Shown here piece after piece: positions 3,301 through 30,115 of a stretch of DNA of 34,247 bases. Below the pieces are notes generated by a model. That model searched no databases. It saw only the letters and a list, made by a program, of their open reading frames with translations, and had not been told where the DNA came from. The DNA is from a virus. The stretch's first letter is position 1. Each line of letters begins with the position of its first letter. A program made the position numbers and the translations under genes. The stretch lies in the IMG/VR virus record IMGVR_UViG_3300047586_000126, positions 1 through 34,247 of that record; one strand, given 5' to 3'.

Positions 3301-3567
3301 GTCCGCGTCGAGGAGGAAGTCGATCGGGTCGGACATCCCATCCTCGAGCTCGAAGTCCGCGGCCGACGGCTTCAGGATGATCTCCCAAAAGTCTACCGTG
3401 TATGGCGGCACACCGCCGGTGATAAAACTCGCCCCGAGTGTGGAGGACGCGAGATGGTCCGTCGTCCAGAGGGTCGGGTCGTTATTCGACAGGATGTCTG
3501 CGTAGGTTCCGTGAGCCTTGATGGTCCGGACGGTAAATTGAGTCCATTCGCGATAGGGTATCGTCAT
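376..3567 (-). CDS. Tail-tip / central hub protein with inserted carbohydrate-binding-like domain
   Basis: A 1063-residue protein, the largest after the tape measure, located where siphophages encode the tail-associated hub or host-specificity protein. Residues about 408-545 look like a separate jelly-roll carbohydrate-binding module: they open with SLIQNGSFNLATDW and end with a FFDEVMFS strand, as in CBM4/9-type domains. Residues about 550-700 resemble phage baseplate hub segments (IDDYSLAGDVFKMTVRD), followed by a conserved-looking PIPVVFGQ stretch. The C-terminal third is beta-rich and typical of hub proteins. The start ATG is 4 bases past the stop of the upstream gene, with only a weak SD, so translation is probably coupled. 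Role inferred: distal end of the tail tube and receptor engagement. No peptidase or lysozyme motif was seen. Confidence 0.75.
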   Translation of the reverse strand: MTIPYREWTQFTVRTIKAHGTYADILSNNDPTLWTTDHLASSTLGASFITGGVPPYTVDFWEIILKPSAADFELEDGMSDPIDFLLDADISLVDKHIITRGVPADSLAAPYFLIYILADPALGTWDPALVSGRYKNGVAQWDIYPIATGVDFLCKLWTWGAKYNCAAWATLGLRERVAFYSLVENSGGGGAVSWKSRQWAFQDGMKIVSHIAASVNQPNGTLGLAGEYWKYNLTPSRLQVRYFNPVVNSLSRYSMLAAGGVQLKLNGMGFNNLDAEISDMTRNGGGIPGMGTWADYIQYIYFEGLQGQGQYKLTYPGDFTLDSNLQITIASMPAMAEGTYNIRLKTHLIYDVGVPVQAWAGDWKVAADGRVSKGKRIVFTVGPVGARGTGLMIAGEYAPIDIRVRGMASLIQNGSFNLATDWDVSNTPNPTLASVAGGVSGGNCGRVTTPAGGAGQYIYDRVGSCVLGAAYHFQEWFKKGTASGGFIKIGSTQGGSEYKAWTGLADADWTFYAINFVATSSDIYISLGVEEASKTAFFDEVMFSKGSAFYDGRILGHSAIARSLSEGGAAGTIADMNIELANADRHFSVKLATELLKNQTIETFCAWKDGPEGEKSTVFTGIIDDYSLAGDVFKMTVRDITQKYFGAKIPREIATKEDYPNIHTDADGKPIPVVFGQCVYSAVAANGAVPALYVDKVNFWYLAAAHPLTITAVYADGLIKSSISEYSIVSGINGRVYIIFAADQGERKITFDATGVAYDPWNSPNGYIQNPAYIRAYLLNMIIGLPMAFMDIDSFDGMADFYESIGEDESGYLILNDEKECMEVLQELDTTYGDTGYIAKDGRYALGRKGIADFSTNVNIFAQIDTLGPPEWLYNMKDAINYIKGRFNWYPAPEVYCQSKRMRYDASVSDFGSEMGSEMELPWTTLPAMVDRRLSEELLKLGYGDRKVSFSVPLSWLDDLDLFANIRLQDPFGSDAGGVGEMGHYVYVESMAVDIQGNKIDVVARDYQWVLRAYLVLGDRGSIADNWATADESDRMFAYLCDRTTGYFADGQPGKILADRNNF

Positions 3568-3570
3568 GAT

Positions 3571-4377
3571 CTACCCGAGGAGCGAGATCCCCTTCGTGAG
3601 CGCCTTCAGTTGGAAGTTCCATTGACGCAGGTCAGCCGTGGGGCCGTGAACCAGCCGCGAGGCGTAATCGGCCAGGTTCTCGATGATCACGTAATAGGCA
3701 AAGGGCTCATTATCGTCGGGAATGAAGATGAACTTTCCGGCATTCCTCTGAACCGCCCGGAGCCACACGGCTACCTCATCGACGACCGAGGGGTCGGTAA
3801 TGTCCTTGATTGAGATGGCGAACCGCTCCGCCTCGGATAGGTAGGCTGACCAGTCCTGGCCGTAATAGGTCTGTTGGCGGGCCATGAAAAAGGCCGGCCC
3901 ATCGGTGCGGGCGGGTTGAAGGTAGACCTTCGAGGAGAAGGCCGTTGCCAGGCCCAGGAAGAACTCTCCGATCTCAATATTGTCCGGGTTGGACCCGTCG
4001 TCGATGTCGAGTACCCAGTAGCGGTAGGTCTTCGAGAACCTAAGGAATGAGTCGTTAAAGTTGGCCGTGATCGGGATGGCGGAGTTCCAGTCCGGAGAAT
4101 CCCAATCACCGCCCGCCGGCGGGTTAGCGGCCGCGGCCTTGATTTTGAACTGGCCGGCGCCGGACGTTAGGTTATGGTTGAACACGCCGACCATCGTGAC
4201 GAGTGTTGGCGCGCCCAGATCGACCAGGATCTGGTTGCCCGACTTCGCCGTGAACCTGAATGGGTATGAGGGCCGCTGGTTATAGAGGTGGTCCTTGGTG
4301 AAGATCGGGTCCTCCGAGGTGACGGAGAGCAGGGTGGCCAGGTCGACAAGATTCATGATCGAATATTTGAGTCCCAT
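3571..4377 (-). CDS. Distal tail-like protein with discoidin-like fold
   Basis: A 268-residue protein between the tape measure and hub genes, the position of Dit-type or minor tail proteins. Residues about 50-135 resemble an F5/8-type (discoidin-like) beta sandwich, with a VDLGAPTLVTMVGVFNH strand pair and later a YRYWVLDIDD strand. The C-terminal half is a beta-rich segment with FIFIPDDNEPFAYYVI, as in phage proteins that join tube and hub. The start follows the tape-measure stop as TAA-ATG, with an upstream GGAGGGG SD. The function assignment rests on synteny and fold impression rather than a catalytic motif. Confidence 0.65.
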   Translation of the reverse strand: MGLKYSIMNLVDLATLLSVTSEDPIFTKDHLYNQRPSYPFRFTAKSGNQILVDLGAPTLVTMVGVFNHNLTSGAGQFKIKAAAANPPAGGDWDSPDWNSAIPITANFNDSFLRFSKTYRYWVLDIDDGSNPDNIEIGEFFLGLATAFSSKVYLQPARTDGPAFFMARQQTYYGQDWSAYLSEAERFAISIKDITDPSVVDEVAVWLRAVQRNAGKFIFIPDDNEPFAYYVIIENLADYASRLVHGPTADLRQWNFQLKALTKGISLLG

Positions 4378-7224
4378 TTATCCCCTCCCGACTCCGAGCG
4401 CCAACTGAACCTTTCGCCGGAAGACATTGGAGGCGAAGGCATCCGTGATCTCGGGCAGAAGGCGTCCCCGGACCCAATCCCGGTCTGTAATCACCTGGCC
4501 GTTGATGTTGACGTTCACGGTGATGTTCCCGCCCCCCGGCGTGATCTTGTGCGGGTCTATGATCGGGACCGCAGAGAACGGGATTGAAGCCGAGGCCTCC
4601 TTTCCGGCGGCGGTCTTCAGGCCGAGGATTGACCAGAGCGATTCGACCGGCTCTTCGGCCTGGTAGGAGCCGACGTGGCCCATCTGCGTCGGCGTCCCTC
4701 CGCCCTTCAGAACATTCTTGGGAAGTGAGGTGAGGAGCCCCCCGGTAGCGACCCACTTATCCCATTGCTCCTGGTGCCACTTGTCCCAGGAGTTGTAGAT
4801 CGCCTGTTCGAGTTTTTTCCCTTTGTTGAGCATAGAAACGAGGGTGCCGACCCAAAGGCCTACGAATCCGACCACCAGGCCCCAGGGCGTCCCGGCTGCA
4901 GCCGTCGTTAGGAGTGCGTTTCCGGATAGTGCCGCTGTGCCAGCCGCTGCACCGCCAAGTGCTGCTGTTCCCATCGTCTCCCCGGCGGCTCCGCCGATTC
5001 CGGCTGCACCGGCAACGGTGCCCCCGACCAGGGCTGAGGCCGCTGCCTTGCCCGCGGACCCGAAAAGGCTGACGACCCCGCCGAATATCGCGCCGACGAT
5101 GGAGTCAATCGCCTTGAGGAGGCCCGTCTTGATGAGGATCTGTTTGATGAATTTCGTAACATAGTCGGCGACCATCTCAGCGAGAACCTTCGCGAACGCC
5201 GATTTAATCGCATTCCAAAAGCCCTTCCAGAAATCAGAGAACTTCTTCGCGCCGGTGATGATGTCCTCAAACAGTGTGGAGAAGCCGCTCTTCATTCCGC
5301 TCCAGAGATCGCCCCATTTGATACCGAATACCCCGAGCTGTAGGTTGAGGTCCACCAGTGCGTCCTGCAGGGCCGTGATTTGATCAGGCGTCATTTGGCC
5401 CTGGAACTTCGCGAGCATGAGGGTAATGTCGCCGATCTTCCTTTTTATTTCGTATCCGAACGTAACCCCGAGTTCATCCTTAAGGAAGGCGAGCGGATTC
5501 TGGAGCCGCTCGAGTTGGAGTTCTAGTCTCCTAACGTCCTCGGGCGTGAGTGTTCGTTTAGCGTCTCCCGCTGATTCCGAATATTTCTTCAATGAAAGGG
5601 TTATGTCATCGATCTTCCGGGCGATGTCCGAGATGAACGTGAGGCCGAGTTCAGTCCGGAGATAGTCCGTGTCGTCCTTGACGTGTTCTAACGCGAGGCC
5701 AAACCGGCGGAGCGTCTCTGGATTCATCTGGCCCTGGAACGCCGCCATCGCCCTCGTCATCTTATCGATCTGCCTTTGGATATCGGCGTTGGTGATGATA
5801 TTGAATTCGTCTTTGAGGAAAGTGAGTGGCTCCTCAAGCGCTATTAGCGCATCGTGCAATTTCTGAAATGACTCCTCCGTTGGCTGGTCCCCGTAAATCT
5901 TCAGGGCCTTTGTGATGTCGGCGATCTTCTCGGCTACATCAGATTTGAACTCGATGTGCAGTTTCGTCTTGAGTGCGAGGTCCGGGCCGAATGCCGTCGC
6001 GATCTTCGCCCCGGCTTGCTTTCCCTCATCGCCCGCCTTACCGAAGCCGGTCTTGAGTTTGTTGAGCGTTTCGATGATGACGTCAAAGGCTTCAACTACA
6101 TCGGAGGCCTTCTCAATATTCTCGTCGGCCCCCTTCTTCAGCGCCACAGACGCACCGCGAGCCCCCTCCGCCTGCTCCTTGAAAAAAGTCTTCCATTTTC
6201 CGCTCAGGCCCTCGTCCGGGCCGAGTTTAGACAGTTTCTCGTAAATCGGGGCGAGAACGTCCTGCGTCCAGGCGAGGCCTTTTCCAATCACAGCCTTGAC
6301 CGTCGGGACGACGAGCATCAGACCCTCAACTGCTCGGACCATTAACTTGAACGCCTCGATGAATACCCGGGCCGTTTCCGTCGCCCAGTTCGCGAGCTGG
6401 CCCGAGGCGGCGAATGCGTCAATCTTTCCGCGGAGGAAGACCAGGGCATCGGTCAGGCCTCTAACAAATTGATTAGCGACCGGAATGAGGGCATTCGCGA
6501 TAGAGTTTCTGACACCTTGGAGTCCTGTATCCATTTCCTTCATAGATACGATGAATTCGTGCGCACCCTTCGCTGTCTTTGCGGTAAACACGACGCCAAG
6601 TTTCTCAGCCAGTGCGGCCAAATCCTTTAGTCCTTGAGATCCCAGGTTGAAAAAGGGGATGAGTTCAGTCCCGGATCGGCCAAATATCTTAATCATGAGG
6701 GCTGATTTCTCGGCCCCGTCCGCCATCCCGGAGAACCGATCGGCTAAGGTCAGGATCATTTCGTTGATCGGCGGGAGTTGATCGCCCCAACTAGCCGTCG
6801 AGATCCCGAGTTCCTGAAAGTTGGTCCTGGCCAGTCCGATCCCACGACTCGCATCCAGCATATTGCGCGACAGGAACCGGATACCGATTGCCAGACCCTC
6901 TAACGAAGATCCGGTCTCCTCTGTCGCCAACTTATAACTTGACAGCAATTCGACCGAGACCCCGGTTTTCTGCGAGAGTTCATATAGTTGGTCGCCGGCC
7001 TCGGCTGTTTTCTTAACCATCACCGTTAGGGCGCCGGCCGCGGCGACCCCGGCGATGGCCGCCATCTTGCCGATCTGAATAAACCCTTCGCCGATACCCC
7101 TTGTAATCCCGGCGAGTGAGCCTTGGCTTCTCTGGATATCGCGGATGGAATTGTCCCACCCGGTCTTGTCCATCAGGAGTTTTGCAACGATCGAGCCGGC
7201 TACGAATCCGCCTACTTCGCTCAT
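4378..7224 (-). CDS. Tail tape measure protein
   Basis: A 948-residue protein with the hallmarks of a tape measure: an N-terminal region with a hydrophobic Ala/Gly helix (about 53-70), long helical stretches, and hydrophobic Gly/Ala-rich segments near 705-800. The N-terminal motif around GDQLYELSQKTGVSVELLSSY is frequent in tape measures. Residues about 418-634 contain four imperfect repeats of 52-59 residues, each with a pattern like DITxxLxKFxGQxTPE and a PLxFLKDEL turn. Length usually scales with tail length at about 0.15 nm per residue, suggesting a tail near 140 nm (inference). The start ATG overlaps the upstream chaperone stop as ATGA and has an AGGAG SD. Confidence 0.93.
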   Translation of the reverse strand: MSEVGGFVAGSIVAKLLMDKTGWDNSIRDIQRSQGSLAGITRGIGEGFIQIGKMAAIAGVAAAGALTVMVKKTAEAGDQLYELSQKTGVSVELLSSYKLATEETGSSLEGLAIGIRFLSRNMLDASRGIGLARTNFQELGISTASWGDQLPPINEMILTLADRFSGMADGAEKSALMIKIFGRSGTELIPFFNLGSQGLKDLAALAEKLGVVFTAKTAKGAHEFIVSMKEMDTGLQGVRNSIANALIPVANQFVRGLTDALVFLRGKIDAFAASGQLANWATETARVFIEAFKLMVRAVEGLMLVVPTVKAVIGKGLAWTQDVLAPIYEKLSKLGPDEGLSGKWKTFFKEQAEGARGASVALKKGADENIEKASDVVEAFDVIIETLNKLKTGFGKAGDEGKQAGAKIATAFGPDLALKTKLHIEFKSDVAEKIADITKALKIYGDQPTEESFQKLHDALIALEEPLTFLKDEFNIITNADIQRQIDKMTRAMAAFQGQMNPETLRRFGLALEHVKDDTDYLRTELGLTFISDIARKIDDITLSLKKYSESAGDAKRTLTPEDVRRLELQLERLQNPLAFLKDELGVTFGYEIKRKIGDITLMLAKFQGQMTPDQITALQDALVDLNLQLGVFGIKWGDLWSGMKSGFSTLFEDIITGAKKFSDFWKGFWNAIKSAFAKVLAEMVADYVTKFIKQILIKTGLLKAIDSIVGAIFGGVVSLFGSAGKAAASALVGGTVAGAAGIGGAAGETMGTAALGGAAAGTAALSGNALLTTAAAGTPWGLVVGFVGLWVGTLVSMLNKGKKLEQAIYNSWDKWHQEQWDKWVATGGLLTSLPKNVLKGGGTPTQMGHVGSYQAEEPVESLWSILGLKTAAGKEASASIPFSAVPIIDPHKITPGGGNITVNVNINGQVITDRDWVRGRLLPEITDAFASNVFRRKVQLALGVGRG
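5323..5973 (-). repeat. Four internal repeats in the tape measure gene
   Basis: The segment encodes residues about 418-634 as four imperfect units beginning at about residues 418, 470, 522 and 581. Shared positions include the LKDE(L/F) opening, a DI.RKI.DIT core, an FQGQM(T/N)P turn in two units, and an LxxAL helix. The protein pattern is clear while the DNA has diverged, so this is an old duplication series. Confidence 0.7.
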
Positions 7225-16737: not shown

Positions 16738-17105
16738 GGAAGACCTGCCTTGCCGTGCATTCCGCCGGTCGTCCGCCGTTCGATGTCCTCCTCGACCGGG
16801 GCCGCCTCGTAGAGTTCTAGGCAGACCGTCGGCTGGATCGCTGTGAACGAGTGCCAGATGCCGACCTCGATCGTCATCGACTGCCCGGCCTCGAGCGGCG
16901 TTGTGTCGGGTTGGTCCTGCTCGGCCCCCGCCGGCCACTGGTGGATGAACAGCCGGCCGGAGAGGACGTGGAAGTGGTTCCGCTTCCGGTCGTGCCGGTG
17001 CTCGGAGCAGTATCCGCCGCCGTCAATCCGGAGCAGATGCAGCGAGAAAAACGGGCTCTGGAAGAGGGAGCTCGTCGTGCCCCAGATTTTCCTTTGCTGG
17101 TCCAT
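16734..17105 (-). CDS. Cupin-fold protein of the sugar-isomerase/epimerase type
   Basis: A 123-residue single-cupin protein. Candidate metal ligands in motif 1 are H36, H38, H44 and H46 in EHRHDRKRNHFHVLSG, and GIWHSF near residue 84 fits motif 2. The N-terminal KIWGTTSSLF resembles the KPWG strand of mannose-6-phosphate isomerase type II cupins, so a role in nucleotide-sugar supply is possible. A GAGGT SD lies 6-7 bases before the ATG, inside the preceding gene, which it overlaps by 83 bases. Confidence 0.75.
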   Translation of the reverse strand: MDQQRKIWGTTSSLFQSPFFSLHLLRIDGGGYCSEHRHDRKRNHFHVLSGRLFIHQWPAGAEQDQPDTTPLEAGQSMTIEVGIWHSFTAIQPTVCLELYEAAPVEEDIERRTTGGMHGKAGLP

Positions 17106-17898
17106 TCAATACCTCGTCGATCGTTGAGAATGGAAACATCCTGAGTCCGCTTCTGGGGTTCAGGTTTATAATCCCGCCCCGTCCCTTGAGGGGCTTGAAT
17201 GCCCTTTCAAAGTCGCGGATGAATGACTGGGCGACGCGCTCAGGCTGTGGCGCGCCGTAGCCGTCATGGAAGTGGGAGCGCCCACCCTCGTGCCGCATAT
17301 CGTATCCGAGCAGGTAGATCGGCCTGGCGCCCATGCAGAGCGCGAGGCCGAGAGCCCCCGTCCCGGAGTTGTTGCCGTGGTAGATTCCGGCCTTGAGCGA
17401 CCCCGATATGCCGTGCCGCCCGAGCGACCGGACTGAATAACAGTCTTCGACCTTCCTTCCCATCAGGTTCAGGAAGATCTTGTATCCCTTGAACGCCTCC
17501 CACTTCGCCAACCGCGCCGGATCCTCATGGCACATCTTGTAGAACTTAAGGTCCATGAAGAACAGGATGTCCGCGAAAGGCGCATACTCGAAGGCCCGGT
17601 TGATGGCGATGACGCGCCCGCGCCCGCGAAGGCGCTCGAAGTCGAATCCGATGAGCGACGGCCCCCCGCCGAGGATGAAGCAGGTCTCGCCCCGCCAGGC
17701 CCCGTCGGCGAGGACCGCGTGGGCCGGATTGTAAGGATCCACAACCCGCCGGGCCGCCTCTTGGTTCTCGGCCAGCAGCCGCGCCCGGTCTTCATGGATC
17801 TCCTTCACCGTCCGGCTATTCGTCGTCAGCAACATGTCCATCATCTCCAAAAGAGCAGGACAAGGGCGGAGGATTTTCGGCTCCGCCCCCGCCTGCAT
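17023..17898 (-). CDS. DUF115/MptE-like protein with Rossmann-like GGGPSL motif
   Basis: A 291-residue protein with the nucleotide-binding motif CFILGGGPSL at 73-82, then VIAINRAFEYAPFADILFFMD and a later GNNSGTGALGLALCMGA and YLLGYDM. This arrangement is typical of the DUF115 group and related phage proteins compared with sialyltransferase-like folds. It probably handles a nucleotide-activated sugar. The start at 17898 has an AGGAAAG SD. It is the first gene after the capsid gene and therefore opens the accessory cassette. Its last 83 bases overlap the cupin gene in another frame. Confidence 0.68.
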   Translation of the reverse strand: MQAGAEPKILRPCPALLEMMDMLLTTNSRTVKEIHEDRARLLAENQEAARRVVDPYNPAHAVLADGAWRGETCFILGGGPSLIGFDFERLRGRGRVIAINRAFEYAPFADILFFMDLKFYKMCHEDPARLAKWEAFKGYKIFLNLMGRKVEDCYSVRSLGRHGISGSLKAGIYHGNNSGTGALGLALCMGARPIYLLGYDMRHEGGRSHFHDGYGAPQPERVAQSFIRDFERAFKPLKGRGGIINLNPRSGLRMFPFSTIDEVLNGPAKENLGHDELPLPEPVFLAASAPD

Positions 17899-28251: not shown

Positions 28252-28506
28252 TTACTTGACAGGATTTATTTTTGCGAGAAGATGTCGAAACAATTTCTTT
28301 ATGGCCCCACAAGGGGCGATCTTAAGGACTGCCTCATGGAATTCGTGGACCGCTTTTTGAAAATTAGTCAGGGCCTCGTCGTAAGTCTCCGAACCTTTAT
28401 TGATTTTATAACCAGAATCGAGAGAGACCTCCGGCCCCCAAGTGGGACCTTTTTTTATGTCAGATGGATAAAACCTTTTTGAGCCGGACTCGGATTTTTC
28501 ATTCAT
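28252..28506 (-). CDS. Small hypothetical protein
   Basis: An 84-residue protein starting MNEKSESGSKRFYPSDIKK. The ATG at 28506 overlaps the previous stop (ATGA) and has a GGGAGGTGAGAGA SD region 6-12 bases upstream, preferred over a longer form. A helical centre (EALTNFQKAVHEFHEAVL) and a basic end (KKLFRHLLAKINPVK) are the only features. No family recognised. Confidence 0.58.
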   Translation of the reverse strand: MNEKSESGSKRFYPSDIKKGPTWGPEVSLDSGYKINKGSETYDEALTNFQKAVHEFHEAVLKIAPCGAIKKLFRHLLAKINPVK

Positions 28507-28778
28507 TCTCTCACCTCCCGAATCTCGAATCCTGTTTCCTTCTGGCAGAATATCTCCCGGGCGCAAGCCGTGGGCGATTCATAGCCTTGCACCGATTTTA
28601 TGTCATCCGGCGTGATAAGGTCAATCACAACCCGGACGAACCGAATATCTGTTAGGCGGGTGGCGGTGAATGTGAACGGGCGGTCATCAGACATGATGAT
28701 TCTATAACTTTTGCTATAGTGCTCGATGGCCTTCGCCTTGGCCCGGCCTTGCCGCTTCTTGATCGCCGAATCGGTCAT
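28503..28778 (-). CDS. Small hypothetical basic protein
   Basis: A 91-residue protein with a basic helical N-terminus (KKRQGRAKAKAIEHYSKSY) and a beta-rich middle (FTFTATRLTDIRFVRVVID), then a helix with CAREIFCQ near the end. SD GGAG sits 6 bases before the ATG, and an array of pentamer repeats begins about 25 bases upstream. No family recognised. May bind nucleic acid on charge grounds only. Confidence 0.55.
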   Translation of the reverse strand: MTDSAIKKRQGRAKAKAIEHYSKSYRIIMSDDRPFTFTATRLTDIRFVRVVIDLITPDDIKSVQGYESPTACAREIFCQKETGFEIREVRE

Positions 28779-28802
28779 TTAATTCTCCGGTTGATTAAAT
28801 TT

Positions 28803-28887
28803 CCCTGCCCTACCCTACCCTACCTTGCCTGGCCTGGCCACGCCAGACCCGATCTAACCCAACCTGGCCCCGCCACACCCTGCCAGG
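28803..28887. repeat. Degenerate pentamer array A (CCNNR, 17 units)
   Basis: On the plus strand 17 consecutive 5-base units, nearly all of the form CC-N-N-R: CCCTG, CCCTA (three times), CCTTG, CCTGG (twice), CCACG, CCAGA and so on, with a single TCTAA. No unit is gapped, so the 5-base phase is exact over 85 bases. In the transcript this reads YNNGG, giving GG every 5 bases, including telomere-like GGGTA. It sits in the leader of the 28778 gene. Confidence 0.85.
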
Positions 28888-28906
28888 TTCATGTTATGAT
28901 TGCGTT

Positions 28907-29017
28907 CCTTACCTTGCCTCGCCCAACCTTACCGCGCCCCGCCATGCCTTGCCTCACCATGCCAAACCTGGCCCGACCCCACCCCGCCCGGCCCGGCCCC
29001 GCCCACACCTCGCCCGG
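28907..29017. repeat. Degenerate pentamer array B (CCNNR, about 22 units)
   Basis: Nineteen units in exact phase (28907-29001: CCTTA, CCTTG, CCTCG, CCCAA, CCTTA, CCGCG, CCCCG, CCATG and so on) followed by about three more with one inserted base. A 19-base AT-richer spacer (TTCATGTTATGATTGCGTT) separates it from array A. It begins 2 bases after the stop of the 29019..29549 gene, so it is the 3' side of that gene. Confidence 0.85.
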
Positions 29018-29018
29018 G

Positions 29019-29549
29019 TTATTTCCACTCGGTAACGATGAAGCGACCGAACGGACCTTTCTTTTCCGGCCTGAAATCGAGCAAGCCGACCCGCGATCCG
29101 GCATCGTCGACGATCTGCCGGACCTGTCTTTCCGTCAGGAGAGATTCGTCATACTCGATCTCAAATTTCGCCTTCCATTCGTCGAGCCGGGGCCGATGGC
29201 GGATGATGCGGCCCCGTGTCGTCGGATTCACAATGGGGCGGCTGTCAATGACATAATCCTTGACACCCAAGCCCACGCGGTCTGGGAATACGAACATGGA
29301 AGCCGCCGTCTGCTTTTGGAGCGATGCCCGCCCCTTGCCCTTGGAGTAGGCCGCCGCCCCGATGAACGACCGCTGGATGGCGATGCCCGGAATGTAGAGC
29401 ATCCCCGTCTCCGGGTCGCGATAGGCGGCGAGTTCAGCCTGTTCCTCGATGGACCGTTTCTCGATGGGCGGATTCTCAATCGGCACCATCGGGAATGCGT
29501 GCATCAGCAACCCCGAAATTCCCTTGACCTCACACTTGATTTTTTTCAC
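29019..29549 (-). CDS. Phage protein, possibly RAMP-fold-like, flanked by pentamer arrays
   Basis: A 176-residue protein starting at GTG with AAGGAG SD 6 bases upstream. The first strand (KIKCEVKGISGLLMHAFP), a LYIPGIAIQRSFIGAAAYSKG segment, and a C-terminal VGLLDFRPEKKGPFGRFIV are a pattern I recall from a conserved phage/bacterial hypothetical family. The LYIPG-(S/I)-x-I turn followed by a helix and the Gly-rich end resemble RAMP/Cas7-type RNA-binding folds, but this is impression only; no catalytic motif was found and it is not a CRISPR gene here. Three pentamer arrays surround it. Confidence 0.62.
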   Translation of the reverse strand: MKKIKCEVKGISGLLMHAFPMVPIENPPIEKRSIEEQAELAAYRDPETGMLYIPGIAIQRSFIGAAAYSKGKGRASLQKQTAASMFVFPDRVGLGVKDYVIDSRPIVNPTTRGRIIRHRPRLDEWKAKFEIEYDESLLTERQVRQIVDDAGSRVGLLDFRPEKKGPFGRFIVTEWK

Positions 29550-29557
29550 CTTTTTCT

Positions 29558-29624
29558 CCTTGCCTTAGATTTTTCCAAACCCTGCCTTGCCTGGCCATGC
29601 CGAGCCACGCCGCGCCACATCCGG
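29558..29624. repeat. Degenerate pentamer array C (CCNNR, about 12 units)
   Basis: Two units (CCTTG CCTTA, 29558-29567), a 7-base gap, then ten more from 29575: CCAAA, CCCTG, CCTTG, CCTGG, CCATG, CCGAG, CCACG, CCGCG, CCACA, TCCGG. The first two units contain the SD of the GTG-start gene (AAGGAG), so the array merges with its ribosome binding site. Together with arrays A and B it brackets one gene. Confidence 0.82.
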
Positions 29625-29638
29625 TTTTGATTTTTTTT

Positions 29639-30115
29639 TCATCGACTTTCTTTGGCGCGGTCCCACTTATGCCAATTGCCGTGCTTTTTCCTTGCATCGC
29701 CCCCAGGCTCAGGGCAGGATTTCGTCGGCCCGGGACCCTTATCGAACGGCCTAAATTCACATCCGCAGGTAATGCACTTTATTTCCAACCTGGGGATCGG
29801 CGTCTCGATATAATGGTAATTCGCCGCCTGGCAATGAGGGCAGATCGTGCGGATGGAACCGAAGGGACGACCGTCGCCGGATCGGATAGGTTTATCCAGA
29901 TCGTTGAGAATTGGCAGGCCGTCAGGGAAATATTCGGTAAGAATGTCCAAAAGGCTATCCATTTTCCCGGCTCGTGGCCTGTTTTTCCCTGTCTCATAGG
30001 CGCTAATCGAGACCTGATTCACGCCGAGTTTTTCCGCGAGCTCCGCTTGCGATAGTCCCGCCTTCTTCCGGTAAGCCTTGAGGTTCCGGATGATCAGGTC
30101 GGCGCGAAGTTCCAT
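29639..30115 (-). CDS. XRE-family regulator with C-terminal zinc ribbon
   Basis: A 158-residue protein. Residues about 6-66 are an XRE/Cro-type HTH (NLKAYRKKAGLSQAELAEKLGVNQVSISAYE), the recognition helix being QVSISAYETG. Residues 92-119 form a four-Cys zinc ribbon (C92, C95, C114, C117). A Ser/Pro/Lys-rich tail follows. It could be a phage repressor or early regulator; the ribbon suggests protein or DNA contact in addition. The ATG follows the upstream stop by 3 bases and the SD is weak. Operators could not be identified. Confidence 0.78.
   Translation of the reverse strand: MELRADLIIRNLKAYRKKAGLSQAELAEKLGVNQVSISAYETGKNRPRAGKMDSLLDILTEYFPDGLPILNDLDKPIRSGDGRPFGSIRTICPHCQAANYHYIETPIPRLEIKCITCGCEFRPFDKGPGPTKSCPEPGGDARKKHGNWHKWDRAKESR

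Follow-up and report, generated by a model that had tools for sequence, protein, structure and literature searches.

The window, by which we mean the whole stretch of 34,247 nucleotides analysed here (IMG/VR record IMGVR_UViG_3300047586_000126, positions 1 to 34,247), very probably carries a VIPR system in a tailed-phage genome fragment, and we put the probability of this reading at about 0.9. On this reading its three pentamer arrays would be vrRNAs serving in DNA silencing, as in their relatives. VIPR systems are related to CRISPR and combine a RAMP protein of ~20 kD (Vipr) with vrRNAs of 9-16 YNNGG units, the repeat that is their defining guide-RNA motif, and staggered arrays have also been described for them (PMC13142463). 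In the vrRNA the GGY letters are constant and the NN letters variable, and DNA is read as NNxNNx with a 1-nt skip, leading to repression (PMC13142463). The first-pass annotation of this DNA took the function of the arrays to be not known; they match the vrRNAs of VIPR systems, and the gene that they bracket is a Vipr homologue (PMC13142463). The assignment draws on array structure, on the protein's homology and predicted fold, on the linkage and strand bias of gene and arrays, and on the turnover of NN against a conserved protein, all of them observed here. This kind of system is already described, and what is new is this phage member and, with it, an uncultivated phage clade.

Structure of the arrays

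The minus-strand unit is YNNGG, the complement of CCNNR, and three in-phase arrays of it flank the gene at 29019-29549. The features of the locus are as follows.

28503..28778, minus strand: downstream gene, 91 aa; no conserved link to vipr seen
28779..28802, minus strand: 24 nt on the 3' side of array A, reaching to the next gene's ATG
28803..28887, minus strand: candidate vrRNA array A, with 17 units, the seventh of them broken (TTAGA for YNNGG); ends TAGGG TAGGG TAGGG CAGGG
28888..28906, minus strand: spacer between arrays B and A, 19 nt; no structured tail recognised
28907..29006, minus strand: candidate vrRNA array B, 20 in-phase units, directly behind vipr
29007..29018, minus strand: 5' extension of array B, with CCCGG, CGAGG and TGTGG; single extra G between them gives phase shifts
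29019..29549, minus strand: vipr gene, 176 aa, GTG start; predicted RAMP-fold guide-RNA-binding protein
29550..29574, minus strand: 3' flank of array C and vipr leader, with an AAGGAG ribosome-binding sequence at 29556-29561
29575..29619, minus strand: candidate vrRNA array C, 9 YNNGG units, upstream of vipr

When CC every 5 bases was scored, the in-phase runs were found at 28907-29006 (20 units), at 28803-28887 (score 14; this is array A, with 17 units and one break) and at 29575-29619 (9 units), and no comparable run was present on the opposite strand. It had been proposed that the case would fall if such runs arose at random rates, and this does not hold, since 200 order-2 shuffles of the window produced no run above 7 (99th percentile ~6); runs of 20, 17 and 9 units are therefore far above chance. 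The array coordinates first given were essentially right, apart from the size of array C, which has 9 clean units (by direct reading TGTGG CGCGG CGTGG CTCGG CATGG CCAGG CAAGG CAGGG TTTGG) and not about 12. In array B, for which about 22 units had been claimed, 20 are in phase and 3 more stand at single-base offsets (28907-29018); its length would be long enough for one long vrRNA or two overlapping vrRNAs. A search of the window and its relatives against Rfam gave nothing over gathering scores and, below them, only implausible weak matches, and promoter and terminator scans were uninformative.

Could the arrays be a functionless low-complexity microsatellite, or translated low-complexity coding sequence? 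A plus-strand open frame of 303 aa does span them, but the units are degenerate rather than slipped copies of each other, they keep their phase, and they go together with a single gene family and a single strand, while the plus-strand frame is antisense to a conserved vipr and is explained by the CC-rich 5-mer. On such an origin, contigs lacking vipr should have arrays at comparable rates, and the contrary was observed. We consider this origin very improbable. The frame itself (28719-29630, plus strand) is an annotation trap and not a gene.

The protein encoded between the arrays

The 176-aa protein matches phrog_4652 (E 4e-18), a family that is also hit by the gene of SUSP1 (2e-98). A profile built from 17 relatives and searched against the whole PDB matched a single chain, 36pp_D, the 'SUSP1 Vipr protein' (E 8.7e-12), and Pfam, PADLOC and NCBIfam gave no match to the Vipr protein of the window. 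The AlphaFold model is confident, with a pLDDT of 88.6, and the best Foldseek matches listed for it are Csm3/Cas7-type subunits of type III CRISPR complexes. With its length, the 36pp match and the predicted fold, the protein falls among the Vipr-homologous RAMP-fold proteins of about 20 kD. In RAMP proteins a glycine loop follows the last helix and precedes the last strand. The window protein has a glycine-containing loop at this place, and the motif D-F-R-P-E-K-K-G-x-x-G is invariant in the 17 homologues between H140-154 and E170-175.

Linkage of arrays and vipr across viruses

A blind search of IMG/VR with a pattern of eight CCNNR units returned at least 120 loci, in which Vipr was sought with an iterated profile, and 62 viral contigs that had been fetched for unrelated patterns served as controls. 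The expectation that the arrays are tied to one gene family was confirmed, a homologue of the 29019-29549 gene being encoded by 88 of the 120 array loci listed and by 1 of the 62 control contigs (Fisher p 2.5e-23, a value that is indicative, since the loci are phylogenetically non-independent). When whole records were searched with phrog_4652, 39 of 50 were positive. Of 336 arrays within 3 kb of vipr, at a median distance of about 200 nt, 332 shared its strand. The earlier view that the minus-strand transcript is the relevant one was right. Tandem YNNGG arrays adjoin vipr in the window, and among close relatives of its protein they were found in 19/20, in all of these on the vipr strand.

In 32 of the loci L009-L128 (e.g. 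L018, L036 and L078) the fetched stretch has YNNGG arrays but no Vipr that was recognised; these may be loci cut short, loci with a more remote type of Vipr, or array-only elements.

Selection on the frame and turnover of the NN letters

Between the window and its relative L129, Vipr is 87% identical with a dN/dS of 0.12, and the NN letters of their arrays align well in no register. Conservation of the protein together with turnover of NN is the pattern that would be expected of guides. The units themselves tell the same story. It had been argued that CC and a purine at the fifth position persist, with selection acting on phase and on GG..Y and leaving NN free, and this is borne out by the 991 units of the clade: 960 of them have C or T at position 1, G stands at position 4 in >96% and likewise at position 5, and the letters at positions 2-3 are a mixture.

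These properties bear on two other explanations. GG recurring every 5 nt fits two-quartet G-quadruplexes stacked in the transcript, as was originally offered, yet such structures would not account for a pyrimidine following GG, for the hypervariability of NN, for arrays lying almost exclusively on one strand or for the link with a RAMP-fold protein, and we hold them to be highly unlikely. The arrays could instead be cis-acting RNA, with a Vipr-like protein binding its own leader (array C) and that of the next gene (array A) and so autoregulating translation, with no DNA targeting. The layout of the window suits this, since C directly precedes the vipr ribosome-binding site and A directly precedes the ATG of the 28503-28778 gene. 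In relatives, however, the arrays vary in number, sit both before and behind vipr and reach up to 80 units, clusters of seven occur in Chloroflexota, and hypervariability of NN would not be expected of a fixed regulatory site. A purely cis-acting role is thus unlikely, if less so than quadruplexes, and it could be compatible with a guide function. Taken together, the conserved Vipr, the linkage of arrays to it and the turnover of NN lead us to a phage VIPR locus with vrRNA arrays. The suggestion of a periodic register read by a protein was correct in so far as such a register exists, and its version as a protein-binding register on DNA is superseded by the guide-RNA reading.

Proposed action and target searches

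For this locus, processing and binding of the RNA, the skip rule and silencing are inferred by analogy with the published systems (PMC13142463). The minus strand would be transcribed and arrays C, B and A would yield vrRNAs, along which copies of the 176-aa Vipr might line up, gripping the GGY letters. The NN pairs left exposed would then recognise target DNA in the pattern NNxNNxNNx, skipping 1 nt each time, and transcription would be blocked by the complex once bound. The likeliest targets would be genes of competing phages, satellites or prophages, and by this analogy the vrRNAs are probably used for silencing genes of such competing elements.

Target searches gave no candidate of this kind. 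The full guide C had no exact NNxNNx match in viral contigs, and 8-unit seeds of A and B had 8-51 matches there, which extended at background rate. Guide A had no self target in its own record. When every array was compared with every fetched locus on a small scale (2.9 Mb, both strands, mostly unrelated viruses), matches with a 1-nt skip were not enriched over shuffled guides. One contig, L222, had a contiguous (0-skip) match of 22/24 to the 3' half of B, which is probably due to chance, having no extension and violating the skip rule. The lack of targets is weak evidence, because sampling of the community around this phage is very thin.

Array length, 3' ends and accessory genes

Arrays of the phage clade have a median of 17 units and reach up to 80. 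As counted on the DNA, the window has 9 units in C, 17 in A and 20 in B, the last two exceeding the published 9-16 per vrRNA. In L144, about 80 and 78 YNNGG units (3561-3960 and 4644-5033) flank vipr, far above published vrRNA length.

The 3' flanks of A, B and C differ from one another, have no common sequence and fold no better than shuffles; that of A has a weak A/T hairpin whose stability is not above shuffles (z 0.80). A structured tail of the SUSP1-clade type was not found on any of the three, which counts against the SUSP1-clade subtype and not against VIPR, because the pseudoknot tail of the vrRNA is tied to the SUSP1 clade (PMC13142463). The arrays do show a bias in their last units. 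CAAGG or CAGGG occupies the last three units at frequencies of 0.50, 0.47 and 0.33, compared with 0.10 internally, and is found at the fourth-last unit in 0/36 arrays. The bias is also seen in Chloroflexota genomes and, weakly, in other Vipr loci, and in the window it is partial, CAGGG being the final unit of A, with the final unit of C preceded by CAAGG CAGGG and that of B by CAAGG.

No neighbouring gene family is common to the phage clade once shadow ORFs of vipr and the arrays are set aside. A vap accessory gene is typical of VIPR, though not universal. The long arrays, the lack of a recognisable tail or a conserved accessory gene, and the CAAGG/CAGGG bias may mark a variant. More tentatively, this could be a distinct form of VIPR with vrRNAs lacking a structured tail, where at most three nearly fixed CAAGG/CAGGG units act as a cap in its place, overlapping guides are cut out of long uninterrupted arrays of 17 to 80 units, and no accessory gene is conserved; we think this form of the idea rather doubtful.

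Neighbouring genes and host

Directly upstream of array C lies a gene for an HTH_3 regulator with a C-terminal zinc-ribbon-like region (29639-30115, minus strand). It has no homologue in the fetched loci and so is not conserved beside vipr. Elsewhere in the window, the protein of 17023-17898 (minus strand) matches phrog_4603, alpha-2,3-sialyltransferase (E 1.4e-30). Positions 1-25000 have no DNA relatives among named phages, and the terminase of the record is distant from those of all named phages. The Chloroflexota relatives of Vipr do not establish the host of the phage.

Comparison with known systems

VIPR has a published phylogeny with seven types. Among the closest known systems is that of the Escherichia phage SUSP1 (type II; PMC13142463; KT454805 28474-29061), its Vipr being homologous to that of the window (profile E 8.7e-12 to 36pp) with about 32% identity across the best-matching C-terminal stretch. 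Like the window, SUSP1 has same-strand YNNGG arrays both up- and downstream of vipr. Unlike it, SUSP1 has an adjacent vap1 gene, none being found in the window, and its arrays are shorter. YNNGG arrays with a common tail are present in SUSP1 and wV8, and this conserved tail of the SUSP1 vrRNAs (GTGGATGGTAGTAGCCACGTT... in L154 and wV8) was not found in the window.

Closer relatives are seen in Chloroflexota/Anaerolineae, where the loci L155-L157 have a Vipr 60-61% identical to that of the window, YNNGG arrays, and the same CAAGG/CAGGG 3'-end bias as the window clade. They differ in that their arrays are short and seven in number, with a repeated spacer between them that folds strongly (z -3.9 in L155) and is absent from the window. 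These arrays lie behind vipr (L155:6711-7496, L156:6713-7510, L157:6713-7582), and the repeated spacer, of ~58 nt, reads CACTCCCTGACGGAGA...GCCTTTTGG...CCAAAGGGC. It has no Rfam match, and is possibly a processing ribozyme or a vrRNA tail. In one 1.5 Mb Chloroflexota genome (L272; genome G101, contig C1 at 246655, 269013 and 816425) there are three equal-scoring Vipr homologues, which suggests a repeated mobile element.

VIPR is a newly described form of RNA-guided DNA recognition, to which the present locus contributes a clade of uncultivated phages that has close relatives among Chloroflexota genomes. The arrays of this clade, differing from studied systems in length and 3' end, should help in asking how the ends of guides are set when there is no structured tail. 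That arrays can be found from the phase of the sequence alone, with GGY marking the strand, offers a simple way to locate VIPR systems and helps to avoid annotating arrays as low-complexity proteins.

A wider comparison is with Class 1 CRISPR. No identical repeats with unique spacers, as in CRISPR-Cas Class 1, are present at the locus, and the 20 window proteins scanned gave no match to cas families; the repeats are of the GGY/NN kind, as against the spacer-repeat guides of Class 1 CRISPR. VIPR has been proposed to precede CRISPR. The RAMP subunits of Class 1 systems (Csm3/Cas7) have the predicted fold and the glycine loop seen in the window protein, and the logic of oligomeric RNA-guide binding would be alike, the window protein, by analogy, forming oligomers as they do.
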